Source: a virus. Taken from it: 25,015 bases of DNA. The stretch's first letter is position 1. Each line of letters starts with the position of its first letter. The notes under the pieces were generated by a model. The model did no database searches. It was not told where the DNA came from and saw nothing but the letters and a program-made list of their open reading frames with translations. This document shows, piece after piece, positions 954 through 23,123 of this stretch. The stretch lies in the IMG/VR virus record IMGVR_UViG_3300046488_000030, positions 1 through 25,015 of that record; one strand, written 5' to 3'. A program made the translations under genes and the position numbers.

Positions 954-3713
954 TTACCTCTGCCAGTTATTCCGGTTATTCAGATCAATTCCTGAATTAT
1001 CATCTGATTCTTGAGTTGCTGGTTGCACCGAACTGGGCAAGGGAAGAGGGGTTCTATCCCCCTGTAACCCAGATAACCTACCCATCTGTGGTCTACTAAC
1101 ACTCACATCCTTCGCGTTCTTCTTGAGTGCTAAATAGGCAAGCGGGTTCTTAACTGCATCCGCAAGCTCCATTAGGGCCAAAGCCGCATCCTTAGCAGTG
1201 GGGGCGGATGCCGCCCTCTCAACCAACTGTCTACCCATCGGACTATAGTAGAGATTGGAGAATGCCTTCGGACTCTTTATCACCAATCCAGTTATAATCG
1301 AGAACACAGCCCCGCCCCTAGCAACACCTGATCCCGGAACATGAAGACCCATCTTCTCCGCAATCCCAACAGCGGCCAACACACTCGCACCACCTGCAAT
1401 GGCAGGAGTTGATACCCTGTCATCACTCCCACGGGACATCATGGGAAGCACTTCTCCTGCTCCAGATGCTCTGGTGTTTAGCTTAGTCCTGACATCAAAT
1501 GTCTTGTTAATAGCGTCAATTCCATCAGCAATACGTTTAGCCGTCTCTTCTCTCCGAGCTAGAGTCTCTTTCCGTGCCTTGTCCTCAATCTTACCGACCA
1601 ATTCCCAACCTGATTCTTTTGCTTTTGTTGCCTGTTCTGCTGCTTTAGTTGCTGATTTAGCGTTCTTGTCTAAGAGATCGCTTACGGCAGACATAGTGTC
1701 GTTTATCTGCTTTCTGAGAACTGGGTATTCTTTTCCTACCTCATGAAGCGCATCATTAGCAGATGCAATCGCCAATAGGTTTCCCGTGTCATTTCCAGGA
1801 TGAAGCAGTTTAACGTTCCCAGCACCTAGATCAGATATCCACGCATCTAATGCCTGCGCTGCTTTCCCCGGTGCAGCCTTCTGGATTACGTCAACTCCTT
1901 GTCTCAGTGATTCCCTGCGAACAACATCTTTGGCGGACTGAGGAGCAACCTGCATGAACCGTTCAAGAGTCATCCCTGACTCTTTCCCTGTCAACATTCC
2001 AAATACCCTTTCAGGTTCCTTGCTTTTGACTACTTTAAGAATATTCTGCAACGACTCATGCTCGAATGCAGCATCGAGATGCATCCTTGCCTCTCTAGCT
2101 GAGTCCCACAAATTAATGGCAAATTGAGCTTCTTTCTGGTCCGCACCAGTTTTAAGTATATTATTCCCATCCTCTACAGACCTAATAGTCTGAAGTAACG
2201 CGTCTTTAGCGTCGGAATATACTTGTTCACCTGACTTCCGGTGAAGATCATTTAGGTCTTTATATGCGTTAAATAGATTTTCAAGTGTGGCTGGCTTGCG
2301 CGACTTAAGTTCCTCGGCACTGGCTTGCAGTAGTTTAGACGAACTACCCCCAAGAATTTCTGCTCCCCGCATACTTTCGGGCGTAGCTGTTTCACTTGCC
2401 GCATCTTGAAGAACCGAGAGAATCTTCGCTGCCCGCTTATCCTTAGTAGACAGTAAAGCTAACTCGTCAGTTAGTCCTTTTAACTGTTCTCCCATCTTTT
2501 CTTTAAAAGAACTCAGGTCCACATGTACCGTGTCAGCTATCCCATTTGCTGAATTATAAGTACTCTGGATTCCTTTTTGTGCAGCCAACTGCGCTTCTTC
2601 AAGACCCCTTCCTACCTGAATACCACGTCTAGACTGAGCCGCCAAACCGATAGCATCATCAACTGCTAGGTCAGCAGAAACGGCCCTGCTCTTTGCACGT
2701 CGGAGGGATTCCATGCGTAGTCCCTCACTTACCAGACCCTTTTCTTTACGCGCTAAGGCGTCCAGTTCCGCGCTCTTATCAGATAATGCTGAGTCAATTC
2801 CTGACTTTTCTAGGTCACGAGTCTTGGCTGCATCCGCTAATTCCCCATTTTGACTGGAGATCGCATTTTCTATATCATACTTCTTGCGTTCAGCAATAAA
2901 ACCTTCTTCCTTATTGCCTAGTGCAGTTTCGGCGGTTCCGAGTTCTAACGACTTTATATTTCTGACTTCTCTATTCATCTCAGATTTATTACCAAGAATG
3001 AACTTGTCCTCTCCCTCTGTGCCTTTAAGAAGGTTCTCTAGCGTTCCAGCCAGTTTACTCTCAGGAAATCGCTCTGCCGGGGACAGGATACTTCCAAAGG
3101 GGGTTTTAGCCGCGTACTCAGATGCGCCACCTACAAGTCTCTTCCCGGCACTGGTGATGCTATTTCCTGCTCCTTCGATCTCAGTAAATGGTAATGTGAG
3201 CAACGCAAACGCACTCTGCATTGGAGTTCTGGGGATCAACTGTGATACCAGCGCCAGTGAGTCGCTTACTGGTGCTGAAAAAGCATTAATCACAGGTTTA
3301 GCGTCTGGAGCTAACTTCCCAAGTAAGTCAGATACTCCACTGACCTTACTACTAATGGAGTCTACTGATTCACCGAAAGGCTTAATCATATCTGTAAACT
3401 TCTTTAAACCTTTGTTGCCTAAAATTGCTACGTCTTCTACGGGGTCTGCTGTAAATGAACGATTAGCCCACTCTTCCGTGTTCTTATTACCCTCGGTCAT
3501 CACAGAGTTTACTTTGTTTATTCCTCTTTCCAATAAAGAGGGCGGATCAACTGGTGTCGGAGGATGCCCATAGGCTCCCTTCATCACCTCATCAAATGCT
3601 GAAGGATTATCATTTTTAGCGAAATCAATGATATCATCATCACTTTTGTCTACAGGTAGCGCATACTCTACTCTGTAGAAGTCAGCGATCTTTTTCTTAT
3701 ATTCGTCAGCCAT
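954..3713 (-). CDS. large virion protein, probable ejection (internal virion) protein, 919 aa
   Basis: A large, mostly helical protein rich in Ala, Glu and Lys. Long coiled-coil-like stretches span roughly residues 240-350 and 380-720. A Gly/Ala-rich hydrophobic stretch at about 768-812 could cross or insert into a membrane. The C-terminus is a polar, disordered tail. No lysozyme, transglycosylase or peptidase motif is visible. The place in the operon (after hub and two smaller virion genes), the size and the amphipathic/hydrophobic make-up fit the DNA-ejection proteins of short-tailed phages such as T7 gp15/gp16 or P22 gp16. This rests on position and composition, not on sequence homology that I can see. 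Its ATG overlaps the upstream stop as TAATG. Confidence 0.8.
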   Translation of the reverse strand: MADEYKKKIADFYRVEYALPVDKSDDDIIDFAKNDNPSAFDEVMKGAYGHPPTPVDPPSLLERGINKVNSVMTEGNKNTEEWANRSFTADPVEDVAILGNKGLKKFTDMIKPFGESVDSISSKVSGVSDLLGKLAPDAKPVINAFSAPVSDSLALVSQLIPRTPMQSAFALLTLPFTEIEGAGNSITSAGKRLVGGASEYAAKTPFGSILSPAERFPESKLAGTLENLLKGTEGEDKFILGNKSEMNREVRNIKSLELGTAETALGNKEEGFIAERKKYDIENAISSQNGELADAAKTRDLEKSGIDSALSDKSAELDALARKEKGLVSEGLRMESLRRAKSRAVSADLAVDDAIGLAAQSRRGIQVGRGLEEAQLAAQKGIQSTYNSANGIADTVHVDLSSFKEKMGEQLKGLTDELALLSTKDKRAAKILSVLQDAASETATPESMRGAEILGGSSSKLLQASAEELKSRKPATLENLFNAYKDLNDLHRKSGEQVYSDAKDALLQTIRSVEDGNNILKTGADQKEAQFAINLWDSAREARMHLDAAFEHESLQNILKVVKSKEPERVFGMLTGKESGMTLERFMQVAPQSAKDVVRRESLRQGVDVIQKAAPGKAAQALDAWISDLGAGNVKLLHPGNDTGNLLAIASANDALHEVGKEYPVLRKQINDTMSAVSDLLDKNAKSATKAAEQATKAKESGWELVGKIEDKARKETLARREETAKRIADGIDAINKTFDVRTKLNTRASGAGEVLPMMSRGSDDRVSTPAIAGGASVLAAVGIAEKMGLHVPGSGVARGGAVFSIITGLVIKSPKAFSNLYYSPMGRQLVERAASAPTAKDAALALMELADAVKNPLAYLALKKNAKDVSVSRPQMGRLSGLQGDRTPLPLPSSVQPATQESDDNSGIDLNNRNNWQR

Positions 3714-4642
3714 TACTTTTTACCAGTTTGATTCTTCTCTGCGTCTTTCTTGGCCCAGAATGCATCTGCTCTTGCTCTAACTGCGTTAGGACTCATTCCA
3801 GCTGCATCAGATGCACTCTGCGGGTCTTTCATTGGTGCCAGATACGCTTTAATGGACGAATCTCTGGTCGCCTCAAACAATGATCTAAGATTACGAACCT
3901 TGTCCATTGCCACTGGAAAGGTGTCGTATTCCGTAGGAAGAGACTTCTGCATTGCCTGAATCTGTTGGTCAGTTAAGCGACCAGTACCAATTAACAACTT
4001 CTCAAGTCGTTGAGCGTGTGGCACAATAGTGGCCATGAACGCAGCGGCATTTGGGTCTTGTTTTGAGTATTGGTTTAACGATAAAGATGCTCCACGGGCA
4101 ATACTTTTGGGAAAAGAATCTGCAAGTTGCAACTGTTTTGTGCCATTTTCAATTAGCGAGATGATTGAGTCAGCGGCACCGAAGTCCTTATTTGCCTCGC
4201 GGGCCTTCATCATCATCTTAGGTGATCCAGCGAGAGTCTCCTGTCCTACCATAGAACCATCAGGTCCAGTAATGAAGTTGACAAATCCGTTTCCTGTGTC
4301 AATCATGTGTGATTTATTTTTGCCGCCTGTGGCCGCCAGTTTCGCTTTGGCGATCTCCAGCTTAGCAGAACTTCCTGCCTGCGAGGTCCACCACGCCTGA
4401 TCCTGCTTGTTAGCCCTCATGCCCTTCGGAAGGGTCACACCATTTTCATCAGCCATGTCCTGCGTGGCCTCAGGCGAAGCGTTCTCCAGATTTGCTCGGT
4501 AGTCCATTTCAGACTTCTGTGCGTTCATTTGTCCTTCGATCTGAGCATTCATCAGTTTTAACTTGAATGCCTGGTCAGTCTGAGAGGCGTCCTCCTCCTG
4601 ATATCCCTTAGTAAATCCCGTCGAAAACCCACCTAAACCCAT
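3713..4642 (-). CDS. putative virion/ejection protein, 309 aa
   Basis: A soluble-looking protein. Its N-terminus is a Gly-rich motif (MGLGGFSTGFTKGYQ), followed by helical, Gln/Met/Ala-rich sequence with a central Gly-Asn/Asp segment (IDTGNGFVNFITGPDGS) and a helical C-terminal half. No catalytic motif is recognised. It is coupled on both sides by TAATG overlaps, lying between the 217-residue and 919-residue genes. The three therefore look like one co-translated ejection-protein set. The assignment is by context and composition. Confidence 0.75.
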   Translation of the reverse strand: MGLGGFSTGFTKGYQEEDASQTDQAFKLKLMNAQIEGQMNAQKSEMDYRANLENASPEATQDMADENGVTLPKGMRANKQDQAWWTSQAGSSAKLEIAKAKLAATGGKNKSHMIDTGNGFVNFITGPDGSMVGQETLAGSPKMMMKAREANKDFGAADSIISLIENGTKQLQLADSFPKSIARGASLSLNQYSKQDPNAAAFMATIVPHAQRLEKLLIGTGRLTDQQIQAMQKSLPTEYDTFPVAMDKVRNLRSLFEATRDSSIKAYLAPMKDPQSASDAAGMSPNAVRARADAFWAKKDAEKNQTGKK

Positions 4643-5661: not shown

Positions 5662-8600
5662 TTAGATAGGTGTATGAGACAACAAATCCAACAATAGACA
5701 CTTCATTATCTAAAGTCCCGTTTGAGACTTTAAACTGAATAGATGAGCCTTTATTACCGACTAAGACCTCAGCAAACCCCGGCGTATCGCTGTTAGCTGT
5801 CTGGTTAATCGTTGAGTCAACCCACGTTGCCCCGCCAGGAGTCTTAAAGTTGTCCAGACGGTATGAGAAGGTTATCGTGCCAATTGACTTAGTTTCATAA
5901 ATGACGTAGACCTTATTTACGTTCTTTTCTAGTTCAATGGAGCCGAGTAGGTCTTCTTTAAGCACAGCAGTTCCAGTGTATGATACACCACTTAGACCGT
6001 AAGAGTTACGTAGTTTAACTACTTTACCACTATTAGCCAGACCAGCATATAGCAAGCCTTTGTACCTAGCCGTGAATAACACGGGGTATGACAGTTCCTG
6101 GAATACACCGATTCTGTCCTTAAGTAGAACCTTGGTGTTGTAGAGTGCTGCCGGAGTGCCCTTGGCGAAGTACAATTCATTATTAAAGCACACAGAAGTA
6201 GGCATTAACGCGCTAACCCCTGCACCTGAGTAGTTAAGCGTGATAGAGTTTATCTCTGGAGCAGTGTCTAGCAACCCTAGGATAATATCAATCTTAACTG
6301 ATACGAATACCTTGGTCGTGCTAGTGCTTATGAGACTGTTGTTAGTTAGAACTACCGTGTACGACCCATCTGATAATGGGTCCGCGCCTTGATCTACAGT
6401 GGATAAAGCGGCGGTGTGCGTAACCGTGGCACCGTTGGCGGTCTGGGTTACTTCATAATTACCCCAAGCAGTTAGCGTAGAATCTGAGGTTTCATCCGTC
6501 TTGTGGACGCTAATAGGAGTTACTTTTCGAATAATAACTCCGTTAGCGGAAGCACCAAACATGATAGTTACAAATACCCTGCCATAACTAGCCATAGCCG
6601 CCGACCCAACGGTGTTGCTATACGCTACGCTAGTTCCGCCTACAATCTCGGTACTTGCCCATCCGAAATGTTCAGTTGCTGAACCAATCCCAGTTACATA
6701 GTAGAAATAGTCCTGATCTGCTGTAGTCGCACTAGACACAATGTAGCCAGCAGAGTAGCACGTCCCCGTGGTAGTCTTTAAGGTCGTAGTCGTCCCCGTG
6801 GTATGATTGCGCTTCTTGAAGTCATCTCCTGACGCATCAACGTATCCAGTTATTAAATCTCCAGCAGCATTAAGCTGAAGTTGACTTCTTCCTCTCACAT
6901 CAGCAGCAAAGTTCTCAGTGTTAGTCCACGTAGTTCCGTCATTCGCAGATGAATAGACCCTTATACTTGTTGTGTATATAAATGACACTCTTGGATTGTC
7001 AGACGTTAGTAGTAAAGATACGTTATTTGTGTCTCCTGTGTTTGCGGGGTCCTCGTATACAGAAGAGTCAGTCCATGTCCCGGTGGCTCTTTTGGAGTAA
7101 ATTACACATGGGATTGCACCTGCGGCTTTTCCAGCAAAAGCAATTCGTGGATCGTTACTTGAGTTGTACGCTATACATATTGACCTAGCACTACTATATC
7201 CGAATGCGTACCTGCTAGGCACCTGGACGCTGCCCCACGTACCGCTAGTATTCTCAATTAAAGCATTACCATAAACCAATGATCCCGAGGTGTATGTCCA
7301 GGCAATGCCTACTATCCCAGAAGCACTTACTCCTATAGACAGAGATGTAATCGTACGCGTTTCCGTGGTTGCTGTCTCAGTAGTAATTGTTCCATCTGCT
7401 AGTACTTTACAATACGTAATCTTTAGTGGATTAGCTGAATCAAGATAGGCCGCATGGATGGTCTCAGATGAGTCAATAGCGACAGATATACACTCATCTC
7501 TCTTAGTAGCGTCTGATCTGGTAATATACTCATGTTTTGGCTTTAACTTACCATCAGATGTAACCATCGTCCCTGCGTGAGTACCATTGTCCCACTGAGT
7601 CTTGGTATCGTAGAAGTACGCCTTACCAGATACCAAAGCAGGACGAATTGTAATCTCATCAGTTGTGGGTTTAATGTCCCAGGATTCCTTCTTAACCCGC
7701 ATTGAACCATCAATAGAGTAAATACCAGTCTCAGTCAGAACATAAAGTTTATTGTCATTTCCGACTACGGGTGTGTATCCCGCGATATTCCCCATGTTCT
7801 CTGGAGTATCAACACGCCTAATCTGGTTCGGCTCACCAACAGCGTCCTGGTCAAAGTTACCGATGATCTGGTAGATTTTGCCATTGTCCTTGAACACTAA
7901 TAGAGAGTCTGCAAACGACTTGATGCTACACACATTACCGCCGTCTTTGGCAAAGATAGGCTCAAATGCCGCCGCATCCCACGAAGTCTCATCGTTAACA
8001 GCAGACCACCACACATCAGATGGTGAACCGGATAGTCCTGAGATAAATATCCGACTCTTGTGAGCCTCAATATACTTACCCTTCGGTGCCTGTGCATCCG
8101 TGATGAGCGTGAGTGTAGAGTTGTTAAAAGACATTGGCGCTTCAGACCCATTGGTGATCACCAAATTATCATTAAATACGATAGCACGTGGAATAAAGTC
8201 TTTGTGTAGGAGGATGCGGGCCGTGTAAGCCCCTAGAGTTTGGGTAACTTCCGCAAATACTGAGCCAAGAGTTAGCGTTCCTGCGCCAGTAACGGCGTCA
8301 ACAACATACCACGCAGACGTAGCATCCGGCTTAATCTTATCCCCGGCCTTAAGATGGGTCGTGAACGCCCCAGTGCCAGCCGTAACGTTGGCTGAGCCAT
8401 TAGTAAAGGTGGCAACTCCAGTAGTATATCCAATATAAGCGTAGTTGCCATCGCCGGAAGTCTCTTTCAGGTCAACCTTATAAGACGCATCCGTATTGCC
8501 TTCGTCTAAAGCGGCTACTACCAGCTTATCAATCGTTGAACCACGACGATAGTTGACAATCATGCGAATAAAGCTGTCTACGTCATCGGGGAATGGGGAA

Positions 8601-10211: not shown

Positions 10212-11357
10212 TCATTTCTGTTTCTCCAACAATGAAACCCTCTTCCTAAGAGATTGGACCTCAGAAACCAATACGGCGATCAGGGCGTTCGGGTCCACGC
10301 CTTTCAGCCCGCCGCTTCCCGCCTGGACGACGGCATCGGGGTAGACCTTCTCGACTTCTTGGGCAATGAAGCCCATCTTCTCCCCAGGGCCTCTGGCCTC
10401 GTCCTTCCAGAAATACGTTACAGGCCGCAAGGCGTCAATCGTTCCAAACATGGAACCGAGGGACTTGATACTCGTCTTGAGCCGAACGTCCGACGCCACG
10501 CAACCGCTGATCGTCCCGGTTGAGTTGGTCGTCAGGCCCAGGGTGCAGGACACGACGTTGTTCTGCGAGATCGCGCCAATGACATGGAGCGCGGTTAGAG
10601 GGTCAGTGGCACCAATCCCAAAATTCTGACCGTTGTTGATGTAACTCTTGCCCGAAGACCACAGTCGTATTTTTAGAGCACTGGCGGCGTACAAGTCGAA
10701 ATACGAAGAATCATTGCTTCCATCTTGCACTATTTGAGAAATGAGATGATTCGATTGGTTGTTGGCCTTCAAGAGGAAACCCTGACCGTTGTTAGAGAAC
10801 ACGCTTACAGATGCTCCAACCGCCATATCCAACGCCCCCGTCGTAGTGAATGTTGACTTCCCGGTGGAGCCGAACTGTGCGGAGCCGTTTACGTCGAGGG
10901 TTGTGGCGGGGGCCGTCGTCCCAATCCCCACATTCCCCCCTTGCAATATCGTCATAAGTGCAGTAGCGGCGTTGTTTCCGAACGTGACCCCCGCCGCTGT
11001 ATCGTTCCAGTACATGTACGACCGAACCCCACCTCCATTTGCGAACGTGAATCCAGTATTAGTCCCTCCCTCGAACTTTGAAAACGAGTTCCCTGCGCCT
11101 TTGACGTGGAGGATAGAGTCTGGGGCCGTCGTCCCAATCCCAATATTCCCAGCCGGAGTGACCGCAAACGTCGTCGCATTCGCCGTCAATGCCCCTCCCG
11201 CCCTGGTGTAGACGACCGAGTTGGCGGGGAGGTTGGAGATGGTGACGGAGGAGGCGGTTAAGGAAGAAACCGATCCAACAGGTTGTTCTCCTTTAATCGG
11301 AGTAGCATTTGCACTAACTCCAATAAGTAGAGTTAAAAGAGTTAAAAACTTAATCAT
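10212..11357 (-). CDS. exported tail-fibre-like protein with C-terminal peptidase S74 chaperone, 381 aa
   Basis: Residues 1-18 form a Sec-type signal peptide (MIKFLTLLTLLIGVSANA). Three beta-helix-type repeats with the consensus G-N-x-G-I-G-T-T-A-P follow, at about 70-85, 141-156 and 245-260. Residues 289-381 are an intramolecular chaperone of the endosialidase type: SDVRLKTSI at 289, with Ser289-Asp290 the expected self-cleavage site, GFIAQEVEKVYPDAV at 329, and a C-terminal helix for trimer assembly. This architecture is typical of phage fibres and of bacterial surface proteins. The signal peptide is unusual for a virion protein. From codon 29 onward the gene is clearly more GC-rich than its neighbours, suggesting acquisition. 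Confidence 0.85.
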   Translation of the reverse strand: MIKFLTLLTLLIGVSANATPIKGEQPVGSVSSLTASSVTISNLPANSVVYTRAGGALTANATTFAVTPAGNIGIGTTAPDSILHVKGAGNSFSKFEGGTNTGFTFANGGGVRSYMYWNDTAAGVTFGNNAATALMTILQGGNVGIGTTAPATTLDVNGSAQFGSTGKSTFTTTGALDMAVGASVSVFSNNGQGFLLKANNQSNHLISQIVQDGSNDSSYFDLYAASALKIRLWSSGKSYINNGQNFGIGATDPLTALHVIGAISQNNVVSCTLGLTTNSTGTISGCVASDVRLKTSIKSLGSMFGTIDALRPVTYFWKDEARGPGEKMGFIAQEVEKVYPDAVVQAGSGGLKGVDPNALIAVLVSEVQSLRKRVSLLEKQK

Positions 11358-18469: not shown

Positions 18470-18917
18470 CTTCTTTGACGGGGGCACTGTCCTTTGACTC
18501 GGCTTGCTCCCACTGTTTGATCTTTTTACTATTCGCATCAGTGAGGGCCTTGATACGTCTAACCTTATCTCCATCATTCATGTTCTCCGTCTTAACTTCA
18601 GTCTTCTCTACAAGGTCGCCCATCAACTGTGCTAATAGCTTAATAGCATTGGTATCCGTATCTAACTTCTTATTGAGAGCTTTATAAATCCTAGACCGCA
18701 TTTCATTAACGTAGGTCCGACGCCTAGCTTCAACCTCTCTGAAGATGAAGGGCCTATACTTCCTCTTCCAGTTGGAGAAGGTAGCATAGTCTAAACAGAT
18801 GTCTTCACAGAACTTAGCATCAGTTCTTGTGTCCGTAGGATCAGCCTGAGTCTCTATGTAAAGCTGGTGCCAGAACCGATCTACGTGAGGTTCAACAATC
18901 TCTTCTTTACTTGCCAT
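18417..18917 (-). CDS. terS: terminase small subunit, 166 aa
   Basis: Recognises the packaging site and loads the large subunit. Residues 30-65 form a helix-turn-helix (KFCEDICLDYATFSNWKRKY). A helical oligomerisation region follows (about 70-125). The C-terminus is Lys/Glu/Pro-rich and disordered, and would bind the large subunit. The position directly upstream of the large terminase and the length of about 166 residues agree. The ATG overlaps the end of the endonuclease gene by 11 bases. Confidence 0.8.
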   Translation of the reverse strand: MASKEEIVEPHVDRFWHQLYIETQADPTDTRTDAKFCEDICLDYATFSNWKRKYRPFIFREVEARRRTYVNEMRSRIYKALNKKLDTDTNAIKLLAQLMGDLVEKTEVKTENMNDGDKVRRIKALTDANSKKIKQWEQAESKDSAPVKEDGPKPSESGGAKPEGAN

Positions 18918-19317
18918 TATGTCTCTCTAAGTAGTCAATTGCTCTTTTCATGTCTTCAATGCTCTCGTTAAAATGACCGATAGCAACATTGTGATTGTGA
19001 CACAGGAGTTGTCGTACCTGCCCTGTTTTGTGGTTGTGGTCTACTGATAGTCTTCGACCATTCTTGTTCTTCTTTTGACAGATTGCACATACGCCGCCTT
19101 GATTATCTAGTATCTTCTTGTACTCAAATGGAGTTAGATTATATTTGGATTTAATACCTGCTTCCCATACTCTAACTTCTTCTGTAGTCCTATTAGCACT
19201 CCTTCTCTTGTTTGAACAGTAGAGACATAGGTCCTCTAGATTATATCTTCCGTCTAGGCTAAAACTGAAGTTGTTGAGACTCTTCTCCCTGTCACATCCT
19301 GAGCAGACCTTGGTCAC
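18907..19317 (-). CDS. HNH endonuclease VII-like protein, 136 aa
   Basis: First gene of the late operon. GTG start with GGAG five bases upstream; no in-frame ATG is available. An N-terminal zinc ribbon has C5-x2-C8 and C31-x2-C34. The Endonuclease VII-type HNH domain has C77-x2-C80, the DHNHKTG motif at 93-99 and LLCHNHN at 104-110. Enzymes of this family resolve branched DNA before or during packaging, which suits the position next to terminase. In most relatives the second pair is C-x2-C; here it is C106-x2-H109, so one zinc ligand is His. It could also be a mobile HNH gene placed beside the packaging genes. Confidence 0.85.
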   Translation of the reverse strand: MTKVCSGCDREKSLNNFSFSLDGRYNLEDLCLYCSNKRRSANRTTEEVRVWEAGIKSKYNLTPFEYKKILDNQGGVCAICQKKNKNGRRLSVDHNHKTGQVRQLLCHNHNVAIGHFNESIEDMKRAIDYLERHNGK

Positions 19318-19374
19318 GGACGCTCCTTCCCCGGTAGGACCCTCATGAACTACCAGCCGTTCCTTGTTGCTGTT

Positions 19375-19405
19375 GGCCGAGGCGGGCAGACAGCCCAGAT
19401 CGGCC
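19375..19405. other. GC-rich imperfect hairpin in the late leader
   Basis: GGCCGA (19375-19380) pairs with TCGGCC (19400-19405), and inside it GGGC pairs with GCCC across the loop AGACA. On the plus strand a T-rich tract follows (TATCTGTGTTTGTTTTATT), so it could stop any rightward transcription. On the minus strand it lies in the untranslated leader of the late operon. Confidence 0.5.
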
Positions 19406-19628
19406 TATCTGTGTTTGTTTTATTCATCATGAAATATCATATTACCCTAAAAAGAGGACATTTGTGTGAAATGACAACTATTTGTACCTATTTTCGATCT
19501 AGGTCTTTTATTTACTATTATAACGGCAGCGTGTATATGAACTATCACTCGCGTGCTAGTGACCCCCGTATGCCGCGTACCCCCATAAAACAGCCTGGGG
19601 TGCCCAGATGGTCAAGTTCAGGTCAAAA

Positions 19629-19713
19629 GCCTCACCACGGGCATTGTGGAACCGTTTATGAGGTATTGTTGGGCACGCAGCGAAGCGGAGTTCACATAGA
19701 GGTCCCAACAATA
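19629..19713. ncRNA. structured block with a perfect 10-bp stem, possible RNA element
   Basis: TATTGTTGGG (19664-19673) is the exact reverse complement of CCCAACAATA (19704-19713), closing a 30-base loop. Immediately before it, CCTCA/TGAGG enclose CCAC/GTGG (19630-19663), giving two adjacent stem-loops. No tRNA cloverleaf, anticodon arm or TPsiC arm could be fitted. It could be a small RNA, a leader structure or an origin hairpin; the strand is not decided. Confidence 0.35.
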
Positions 19714-20145
19714 CACAGAATCAGTCACAATATAGGACTTAAGACCTATTAAAAGTACCTTATTTGCTTCTTTAAGACAAAATAGATGGTAAAGAATAAG
19801 CCCTTCTTCTCCCAGTAAGTACCTAATGAACAAATAGGGTCCCCTTTTTAGATGAGTAGGGAGGGTCTAAATCTACTCTCTAAGATTCTATCTTGGAGTG
19901 GGTAGGTCATCATTGTACCTATAATCACCATAAAGCCCCCAATCTCGATAGCCAGGGGGTCAAGTTACACAGATTACATTAATTACAATACTTACACATG
20001 TTATGACAATTACTGATATGATATAAATGACATAGATGATGATAATGACATAGGTGAGCGAGGTTACAATAATTATGAATGTTATGTGTATTACATCTAT
20101 GACTAACCCGACAATAATGATATTAATCACAATCATGGGGGTAAT

Positions 20146-20181
20146 ATTGTAACTATTGTAACTATTATAACTATTGTAATT
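20146..20181. repeat. four tandem 9-mers ATTGTAACT (iteron-like)
   Basis: Units at 20146, 20155, 20164 and 20173 read ATTGTAACT, ATTGTAACT, ATTATAACT and ATTGTAATT. They sit in an AT-rich stretch (about 19967-20200) rich in TTACA/TGTAA. Tandem AT-rich iterons suggest DNA unwinding or initiator binding. Confidence 0.7.
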
Positions 20182-20221
20182 ACACAGGGTATTGTAATCT
20201 GGGATAACCAGACGGTTGTCA

Positions 20222-20323
20222 ATAGGCCATAAGACCTAGATGTCAATAGGTCCTTTGATGATGTCAAGACCTAGATAATATGTAGGTCATAAGACCTATA
20301 TGATAATTGGGTCATAAGACCTA
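20222..20323. repeat. cluster of TAGGTC/GACCTA inverted repeats, operator-like
   Basis: The clearest unit is TAGGTC-ATAA-GACCTA at 20283-20298. Related units are TAGGCC...GACCTA near 20224-20238, TAGGTC (20247-20252) with GACCTA (20268-20273), and GGGTC-ATAA-GACCT near 20310-20322. Diverged copies lie at 19732-19749 (ATAGG...CCTAT) and 19903-19921 (TAGGT...ACCTA). Repeated dyads beside the start of the early genes are typical of repressor or initiator binding sites. Confidence 0.6.
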
Positions 20324-20337
20324 TTGATCCAGATCAA
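20324..20337. repeat. palindrome TTGATC-CA-GATCAA
   Basis: Six-base arms with a two-base spacer. Its right half (CCAGATCAA) is shared with the 13-bp direct repeats 150 bases downstream, so all may bind the same protein. Confidence 0.5.
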
Positions 20338-20478
20338 CTAATATATACCACTTATCAACACTGAGTGGATTGTCCATGTTGTGTCATCTTTTATCGTTTC
20401 CCGTCATTGTAAGTATGAGTTAATGCCTGGCACCTAGAACATTTGTACTAGTCTCCCTCTGAAGCATGGTAAAATGAT

Positions 20479-20504
20479 TGACCCAGATCAATGACCCAGA
20501 TCAA
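20479..20504. repeat. two exact tandem copies of TGACCCAGATCAA
   Basis: 13-bp units at 20479-20491 and 20492-20504 with no spacer. A diverged third copy is TTGACTGAGATCAT at 20514-20527. They lie about 110-160 bases upstream of the first rightward gene, where an early-gene operator would be. Confidence 0.65.
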
Positions 20505-20585
20505 CAACTAGTATTGACTGAGATCATATGTTTGGGTCGGTGGTTGTGGTAAACTGTTGTTGCCGCTGACGGTGCCGAACCAGGA

Positions 20586-20626
20586 CCCCGGGTCGGGGAT
20601 GACCGACAAGCCAGTGTTGCACTGGC
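20586..20626 (+). promoter_or_regulatory. two hairpins in the leader of the first rightward gene
   Basis: CCCCG-GGT-CGGGG (20586-20598) and GCCAGTG-TTG-CACTGGC (20610-20626) are perfect. The second ends directly before the AGGA ribosome site at 20627-20630. An alternative pairing, GGTC with GACC (20591-20604), excludes the first stem, and GTCGG (20536-20540) can pair with CCGAC further down. Such competing stems next to a ribosome site suggest translational control. No known riboswitch class was matched. Confidence 0.45.
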
Positions 20627-20637
20627 AGGATAATACC

Positions 20638-20925
20638 ATGAACTCAAAACAGCGCAGGGCTATGCTTCACAACATAGCCAAGGCATTGACAGGTCCATAC
20701 ATTCCTGAAACGCCTAGGATGGAGGCGCAACTGCGAAACATTACCAGGACTAGGTTACATTATCGCCTTGGAATAGCTTCGGAATGGATCGCGGATGCAG
20801 CAGGCCATATTACGAAGGTCATCCCGTACAAGGTTACCAGAACCAGCCCTAGCGGTCAAGAGCATATGCATACAGTACGCAATAAGACGGCTATTAGGTG
20901 GGATAGGGAAGTCAAGGCGCAATAA
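20638..20925 (+). CDS. hypothetical basic protein, 95 aa, first rightward gene
   Basis: An Arg/Lys/His-rich protein (MNSKQRRAMLHNIAKALTGP at the N-terminus), mixed alpha/beta, with no recognised family. The start chosen is the ATG with AGGA seven bases upstream. An in-frame ATG at 20599 would add 13 residues but would lie inside the leader hairpins with a poor ribosome site. As the first gene after the control region it is a candidate early regulator or nucleic-acid-binding protein; its basic charge is consistent with this but not proof. Confidence 0.75.
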   Translation: MNSKQRRAMLHNIAKALTGPYIPETPRMEAQLRNITRTRLHYRLGIASEWIADAAGHITKVIPYKVTRTSPSGQEHMHTVRNKTAIRWDREVKAQ

Positions 20926-22515: not shown

Positions 22516-22806
22516 ATGGAAAAGAAACCGTATGTTATCGTTCGCACCTATTCGGCGGGTTGCTTTGCTGGATACCTTGAATCCGAGAAGGGGCAGGAGG
22601 TTGTGTTGACCGAGGCCCGCCGTTTGTGGCAATGGTCCGGTGCCGCATCATTGTCCCAACTTGCCGTATCTGGTACTTCAAACCCGTCTGGTTGCAAGTT
22701 TCCCGAAGCGACACTAAAGCACAAGTTGTATCAGGCCATTGAGTGCATCACTACTACGGAGGCGGCTCGTAAGTCTATCGAGGCGATCCCCGCATGGAAA
22801 GCGTAG
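22516..22806 (+). CDS. DUF6948-type protein, 96 aa
   Basis: The pattern YVIVRTYSAGCFAGYLES, EVVLTEARRLWQWSGAASLS and QLAVSGTSNPSGCKFPEA matches the phage-borne family I know as DUF6948, full length here. The biochemical role of the family is not known. Related genes occur in many phages of diverse hosts, often followed by Gly-rich repeat ORFs, as here. AAAGGAGAGTT gives a good ribosome site. Its last four codons overlap the start of the repeat ORF. Confidence 0.8.
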   Translation: MEKKPYVIVRTYSAGCFAGYLESEKGQEVVLTEARRLWQWSGAASLSQLAVSGTSNPSGCKFPEATLKHKLYQAIECITTTEAARKSIEAIPAWKA

Positions 22807-23123
22807 ACAAAGAAATACATGACGGTTCCGGTTCCGGTTACGGTTCCGGTTACAGTTACGGTGACGGTGACGGTTCCGGTTACGGTTCCGGTTCCGGTTC
22901 CGGTTCCAGTTACGGTTACGGTGACGGTTCCGGTTACAGTTACGGTTCCGGTTACGGTTACGGTGACGGTTCCGGTTACAGTGACGGTGACGGTTCCGGT
23001 TCCGGTTACGGTTACGGTGACGGTGACGGTTCCGGTTCCGGTTCCGGTTACGGTTACGGTTCCGGTTCCGGTTACGGTTCCGGTTCCGGTGACGGTTCCG
23101 GTGACAGTTACGGTGATGCATAA
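22794..23123 (+). CDS. Gly-Ser/Tyr/Asp repeat protein, 109 aa
   Basis: Residues 1-9 (MESVDKEIH) are followed by an almost pure dipeptide repeat, Gly alternating with Ser, Tyr or Asp, to the end. The DNA is a run of about 50 hexamer units of the forms GGTTCC, GGTTAC, GGTGAC and AGTTAC. Such tracts leave all frames open. This frame is preferred because its ATG overlaps the DUF6948 stop, and because Gly-rich repeat ORFs are known beside DUF6948 genes. The alternative plus frame (Thr-Val-Pro-Val repeats) and the minus frame (Arg-Asn/His repeats) lack such starts. The protein would be disordered. Confidence 0.6.
   Translation: MESVDKEIHDGSGSGYGSGYSYGDGDGSGYGSGSGSGSSYGYGDGSGYSYGSGYGYGDGSGYSDGDGSGSGYGYGDGDGSGSGSGYGYGSGSGYGSGSGDGSGDSYGDA
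22821..23114. repeat. hexanucleotide tandem-repeat tract (about 50 units)
   Basis: Variants of a six-base unit GGT-NNC with N-N mostly TC, TA or GA. The units are in phase with the codons and differ by single bases, as expected from slippage and point change under codon-level selection. Copy number is likely to vary between relatives. Confidence 0.9.

Follow-up and report, generated by a model that had tools for sequence, protein, structure and literature searches.

Iteron origins of known systems

PICI origins are described as "always" consisting of two iteron sets around an AT-rich region, located just 3' of the initiator gene (PMC6092414). The origins of SaPI and SCCmec elements are rep-ori modules with the same layout (PMC7581432). 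The lambda ori contains four 19-bp iterons that are bound by O (PMC3985674), and the origin of the PLE satellite is formed by RepA_N-type iterons (PMC7145576). The locus considered here is a gap of about 1.3 kb between two divergent operons in a viral genome fragment. Judging from its sequence, its design looks like a variant of these iteron origins and not like a novel kind. An earlier note on this DNA had called the region unlike any that could be named. This was too strong, because two iteron sets around an AT-rich stretch are the published SaPI/PICI layout.

Genome context

The window is a whole IMG/VR virus record of 25,015 bp, which is taken as a fragment because open reading frames (ORFs) run off both ends. 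Its genes are arranged around the gap as follows:

Leftward from 19317, minus strand: block of EndoVII, a TerS-like ORF, TerL, portal, scaffold, major capsid and tail genes
18907-19317, minus strand: Endonuclease VII-like gene, first of the leftward terminase and structural block (PHROG endonuclease VII, E 7e-36; Shine-Dalgarno sequence AAGGAG before GTG)
19318-20637: gap
20638-20925, plus strand: first gene of the rightward block, 95 aa, ATG at 20638, no known family
From 20638, plus strand: rightward block of small genes, mostly without known family

The gap holds no convincing gene; the longest ORF within it (19345-19752, 135 aa) had no match in a PHROG search. The gene-free, repeat-dense interval between divergent operons that the earlier note had described is thus confirmed, and the gap repeats are far above chance expectation in counts against simulated windows. 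The same note's statement that nearly all other junctions overlap describes the tightly packed left arm but not the right arm, which has several gaps of 100-400 bp. The right arm also includes a 109-aa gene of the (GSGYG)n type (22794-23123, plus strand) made of about 49 units of a 6-bp tandem repeat, with a DUF6948 protein just upstream (22516-22806, E 1.7e-27). On the left, 10212-11357 (minus strand) encodes a probable tail-fibre protein whose C-terminus resembles, by eye, an S74-type self-cleaving chaperone domain.

A DNA similarity search with the window found no named phage, a tRNA search of the window was negative, and an Rfam search returned neither a family match nor a known structured RNA. 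Neither an initiator nor a repressor was recognised among the genes of the 25-kb fragment, and the right-arm proteins searched included no replication family. The initiator would then be encoded outside the fragment, so that membership in a named origin family is unproven for this region.

The 9-bp array

The core of the gap, which the earlier note did not resolve, is a contiguous array of about 26 units of 9 bp (19965-20198) that keeps a single 9-bp register across both orientations:

19965-20144, plus strand: left block, 20 contiguous 9-bp units, consensus TKAYANWAA, 71% AT; candidate iteron array and probable melting region
20145-20198, minus strand: inverted block, about five copies of TTACAATAG, 77% AT, register kept

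When the left block is cut every 9 bases from 19965, the first four columns are T (19/20), K (T or G; 19/20), A (19/20) and Y (C or T; 18/20), and most units are degenerate. Over these 180 bp the column-consensus sum is 112, compared with 79.0 +/- 4.6 and a maximum of 97 in 5000 simulations, and is the top value among all 180-bp stretches of the window. Autocorrelation is strongly raised at lags 9, 18 and 27, with a z of about 7 at lag 9.

The earlier note had read the gap as an origin of replication plus an early/late transcription control region, and had named AT content and cumulative GC skew as checks. The first agrees with an origin, as the least stable 200 bp of the window begin at 19973. 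The second is equivocal: the cumulative skew minimum of the window lies within the array, at 19997, but the coding strand switches there too, so that the two effects are confounded, and for each codon position the coding-strand skew agrees in sign between the two arms. The array is probably both an iteron array and a melting region.

Palindromes and candidate promoters

Two families of palindromes and several hairpins accompany the array:

19486-19510, minus strand: lone inverted AAGACCTA half-site (TAGGTCTT at 19500), forming an inverted pair with 20266-20287 (22 nt, 77%)
19663-19714: perfect 11-bp inverted repeat GTATTGTTGGG-30-CCCAACAATAC, a hairpin on either strand; local folding z about -3 on the minus strand
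19733-19748, plus strand: lone TAGGACTTAAGACCTA palindrome, oriented like the cluster at 20223-20323
20223-20323, plus strand: cluster of palindromic iterons TAGGTC-NTAA-GACCTA, with AAGACCTA at 20231, 20266, 20291 and 20316; folding z -5.3
20324-20337: 14-bp palindrome TTGATCCAGATCAA, candidate operator of the leftward promoter
20341-20351, minus strand: candidate leftward promoter, -10 segment TGGTATATATT, 3 bp from the operator at 20324-20337
20467-20475, plus strand: candidate rightward early promoter, extended -10 TGGTAAAAT
20478-20527: three further 14-bp palindromes at 20478, 20491 and 20514 (the last with 3 mismatches), just 3' of the candidate rightward promoter
20610-20626, plus strand: perfect 7-bp hairpin GCCAGTG-TTG-CACTGGC, with 11 bp between its end and the first start codon of the rightward block

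The first family comprises four to five TAGGTC-NTAA-GACCTA palindromes beside the array, spaced 35, 25 and 25 bp apart. The sequence TAGGTCNTAAGACCTA has 8 strand-matches in the window against 0.77 expected, all of them in the gap. At its left end, the gap begins with a GC-rich leader of the late block, followed by an AT-rich stretch that carries a minus-strand TATAAT (plus coordinates about 19517-19523) just upstream of the half-site at 19500; the segment 19486-19510 is thus placed as a candidate site on the late-promoter side. The right end is a GC-rich leader in which the 7-bp hairpin precedes the start codon at 20638.

The second family consists of four 14-bp TTGAYCCAGATCAA palindromes, three of them directly downstream of the candidate rightward promoter. 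At up to one mismatch, TTGAYCCAGATCAA has three sites in the window, all in the gap, and none in 30 simulated windows. Both candidate extended -10 sites have such a palindrome 2-3 bp downstream. Of a possible divergent operator/promoter region, the operator-like palindromes are significant, but consensus promoter matches in a sigma-70 scan of the gap were no commoner than in shuffles. DnaA boxes were also considered and rejected; they are not above chance in the window, so that TTATCAACA at 20352 was not used.

The corresponding region in related viruses

Relatives were sought in IMG/VR, where scans with single proteins (terminase, portal) gave only L007; L091 and L093 were found by hand-made DNA patterns, and a search of genome contigs gave no match. 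L091 is the nearest relative found (identity 56% for TerL, 52% for portal and 62% for capsid), followed by L093 (48% for portal, 50% for capsid) and L007 (43% for TerL). In the syntenic place of L091, upstream of EndoVII and one small ORF, at least 1.1 kb extend to the contig end without a convincing gene. This gap carries tandem 7-bp units of the TACTTAG type in two groups (8117-8139 and 8181-8207) and a perfect 14-bp inverted repeat (8518-8562). Part of it is AT-rich, and its GC skew turns positive. In L007, repeats and AT-rich tracts occupy the first approximately 560 bases, upstream of the terminase block; at 89-224 there are five copies of a GCTTGTCGGGGCC-like 13-mer.

The 9-bp word is absent from L091, and gap sequence is not conserved even there. 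However, L091 and L007 have repeats of their own at the matching place, and therefore position and design recur while sequence does not. The earlier note had proposed a check for conserved blocks in related phages; what L091 keeps is the architecture. A coding frame conserved in related genomes, which that note would have taken as refutation, is not present in L091.

The 9-bp word in other viruses

The TTACANTANTTACANTANTTACA word has matches in 46 viral contigs, many of them coding. Among 12 non-coding loci examined, a primase/helicase gene adjoins the array in six, a post hoc count without matched control:

L101: Prim-Pol+D5_N
L107, L119, L125: VapE
L126: Prim-Pol+DUF5906
L133: primase by PHROG

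The search word was derived from the window itself, few loci are involved, and L119 and L125 are homologous. Opposed 9-bp blocks surround a spacer in L107 and L101. The layout is clearest in L107, where AACGTTGTAACTACTGTAACTACTGTAAC is followed by an AT-rich spacer and then by GTTACAGGTAGTTACAGTAGTTACAACGTT. Origin-like gaps with TTACANTAN-type repeats lie by the VapE, Prim-Pol or primase genes at L107:12950-13262, L101:5077-5341, L133:4768-5053 and L119:3700-3985.

In the reverse direction, ten VapE/Prim-Pol genes were taken from named phages. Behind eight of them lie 230-390 gene-poor bases, and 9-bp repeats of other sequence occur in several of these stretches, such as GACAACCTA in YeP4 and GTAAACGGA in F2. 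Four gaps after VapE/primase genes, with direct and inverted repeats of about 9 bp (GACAACCTA, GTAAACGGA, GCTTGTCCC and GTGACAAA), are probable unannotated origins:

L142 (Yersinia phage YeP4): 4643-4972
L144 (Bacteroides phage F2): 4142-4421
L146 (CL31): 3902-4135
L151 (PMP-GADVASU-IND): 3599-3867

Another instance of the 9-bp word beside packaging genes is L131, where about seven TGTAAGTNT units (2380-2441) lie between a probable small-terminase ORF, recognised by eye, and the large terminase gene. The dense 9-bp arrays of L116 and similar loci were set aside as coding Cys repeats, and the gap of ctKR88 has no comparable repeats. In L116, the N-termini of two paralogous genes (669-1259 and 1641-2210, minus strand) are long runs of the three-residue repeat (D/N)-x-C, for which a 9-bp tandem repeat codes; similar repeats occur in L111, L130 and L136.

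A tentative extension, less likely than not, is that opposed tandem TTACANTAN 9-mer blocks are a recurrent origin word common to otherwise unrelated viruses of the primase-polymerase/VapE type, and that in the present phage lineage this origin has moved away from its initiator gene and fused with an early/late divergent promoter switch.

Relationship to known origins and switches

The locus shares with the SaPI/PICI origins a pair of short-iteron sets within AT-rich DNA, and in other viruses the 9-bp word is so placed 3' of VapE/Prim-Pol genes. The agreement between the opposed blocks (71-77% AT) and two flanking iteron sets is loose, as the AT-rich part itself carries units. In addition, the array lies between divergent early and late operons, with EndoVII and the 95-aa ORF as neighbours, instead of immediately 3' of a rep or primase-helicase gene, and it differs in having 20 contiguous degenerate units in one block as well as extra palindrome families.

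The resemblance to the lambda ori, with its approximately four iterons of about 19 bp by an AT-rich stretch, lies in about four direct-order AAGACCTA-centred palindromes next to the array, which transcription would likely cross. The lambda iterons, however, are inside the O initiator gene, whereas there is no gene at this cluster, and a second, 9-bp iteron family is present here. Since the location differs from both the SaPI/PICI and the lambda types, the region is not classed with either. The palindromes also recall the RepA_N-type iterons of PLE, which are semi-palindromic direct repeats in a non-coding region, but no RepA_N gene was found in the fragment. Finally, the candidate divergent promoters, with their paired operator-like palindromes from a single family, would resemble lambdoid oL/oR; here the operators are 3' of the -10 sites, their sequence is unrelated and the fragment has no repressor gene.

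Proposed function and alternatives

Overall, it is somewhat more likely than not that in the gap an iteron-type replication origin is combined with the divergent early/late control region of a tailed phage. The 9-bp TTACAATAN units in the two opposed blocks would be bound by an initiator that the phage encodes, probably one of the primase-polymerase/SF3 or VapE helicase type, and its loading would melt the AT-rich stretch. The 25-bp-spaced TAGGTC..GACCTA palindromes may be recognised by the initiator or by a second regulator, to which the lone copies at 19733 and 19500, towards the late operon, would also belong. The palindrome-binding proteins would set timing and control the divergent promoters: a dimeric repressor on the TTGAYCCAGATCAA palindromes would act on those near 20341 (leftward) and 20467 (rightward), and transcripts running leftward would pass through the array to supply the late block. 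This combined reading, the one proposed in the earlier note, best accommodates the array, the least stable segment, the paired operators, the syntenic gap of L091 and the replication-gene neighbours of the word; the skew shift is confounded and sequence conservation is lacking. Counting against an origin, the initiator gene does not lie beside the array as it does in known PICI origins.

The gap could instead serve transcription alone, through divergent early/late promoters and two operator families, with the 9-bp tract as a cooperative regulator array, for example of the ribbon-helix-helix kind, and no replication start. The operons diverge at the gap, the palindrome families flank the candidate promoters, and ribbon-helix-helix regulators, like partition proteins, are also known to have short contiguous arrays in both orientations. 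Such a role leaves unexplained both the long AT-rich, least stable segment and the primase/helicase neighbours of the word in six of the 12 non-coding loci examined elsewhere, and we regard it as unlikely.

More doubtful still is a functionless 9-bp tract, either a degenerate tandem repeat born of slippage or the relic of a gene for a peptide of three-residue repeats. A period of 9 equals three codons, plus frame 2 gives (Y/D)-x-x repeats, the same phage has the 6-bp repeat gene at 22794-23123, and in other viruses the word in part matches coding Cys repeats. However, two stops interrupt plus frame 2, which also lacks a start preceded by a Shine-Dalgarno sequence, and column 2 is never A across the 20 units, so that a synonymous position would have to be constrained if the minus strand were read; a coding origin is therefore unlikely. 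Moreover, the final units keep the register although they are inverted, and coding would not preserve this.

That the main function is a structured leader RNA of the late mRNA, an antitermination or processing element, is highly improbable: 20200-20340 folds well (z -5.3) and a hairpin lies at 19663-19714, but Rfam gave no match, among the copies of the palindrome the right arm is constant and the left one varies, with two of three substitutions breaking pairs without compensation, and 20200-20325 folds on both strands as expected of palindromes.

Implications

Rapid sequence change has left the origins of most environmental phages unknown. A sequence-independent handle for finding them is offered by the 9-bp register, the opposed blocks and the synteny upstream of terminase genes. 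In addition, the sharing of the word beside primase-polymerase/VapE genes suggests the class of initiator to seek in the missing part of this genome.
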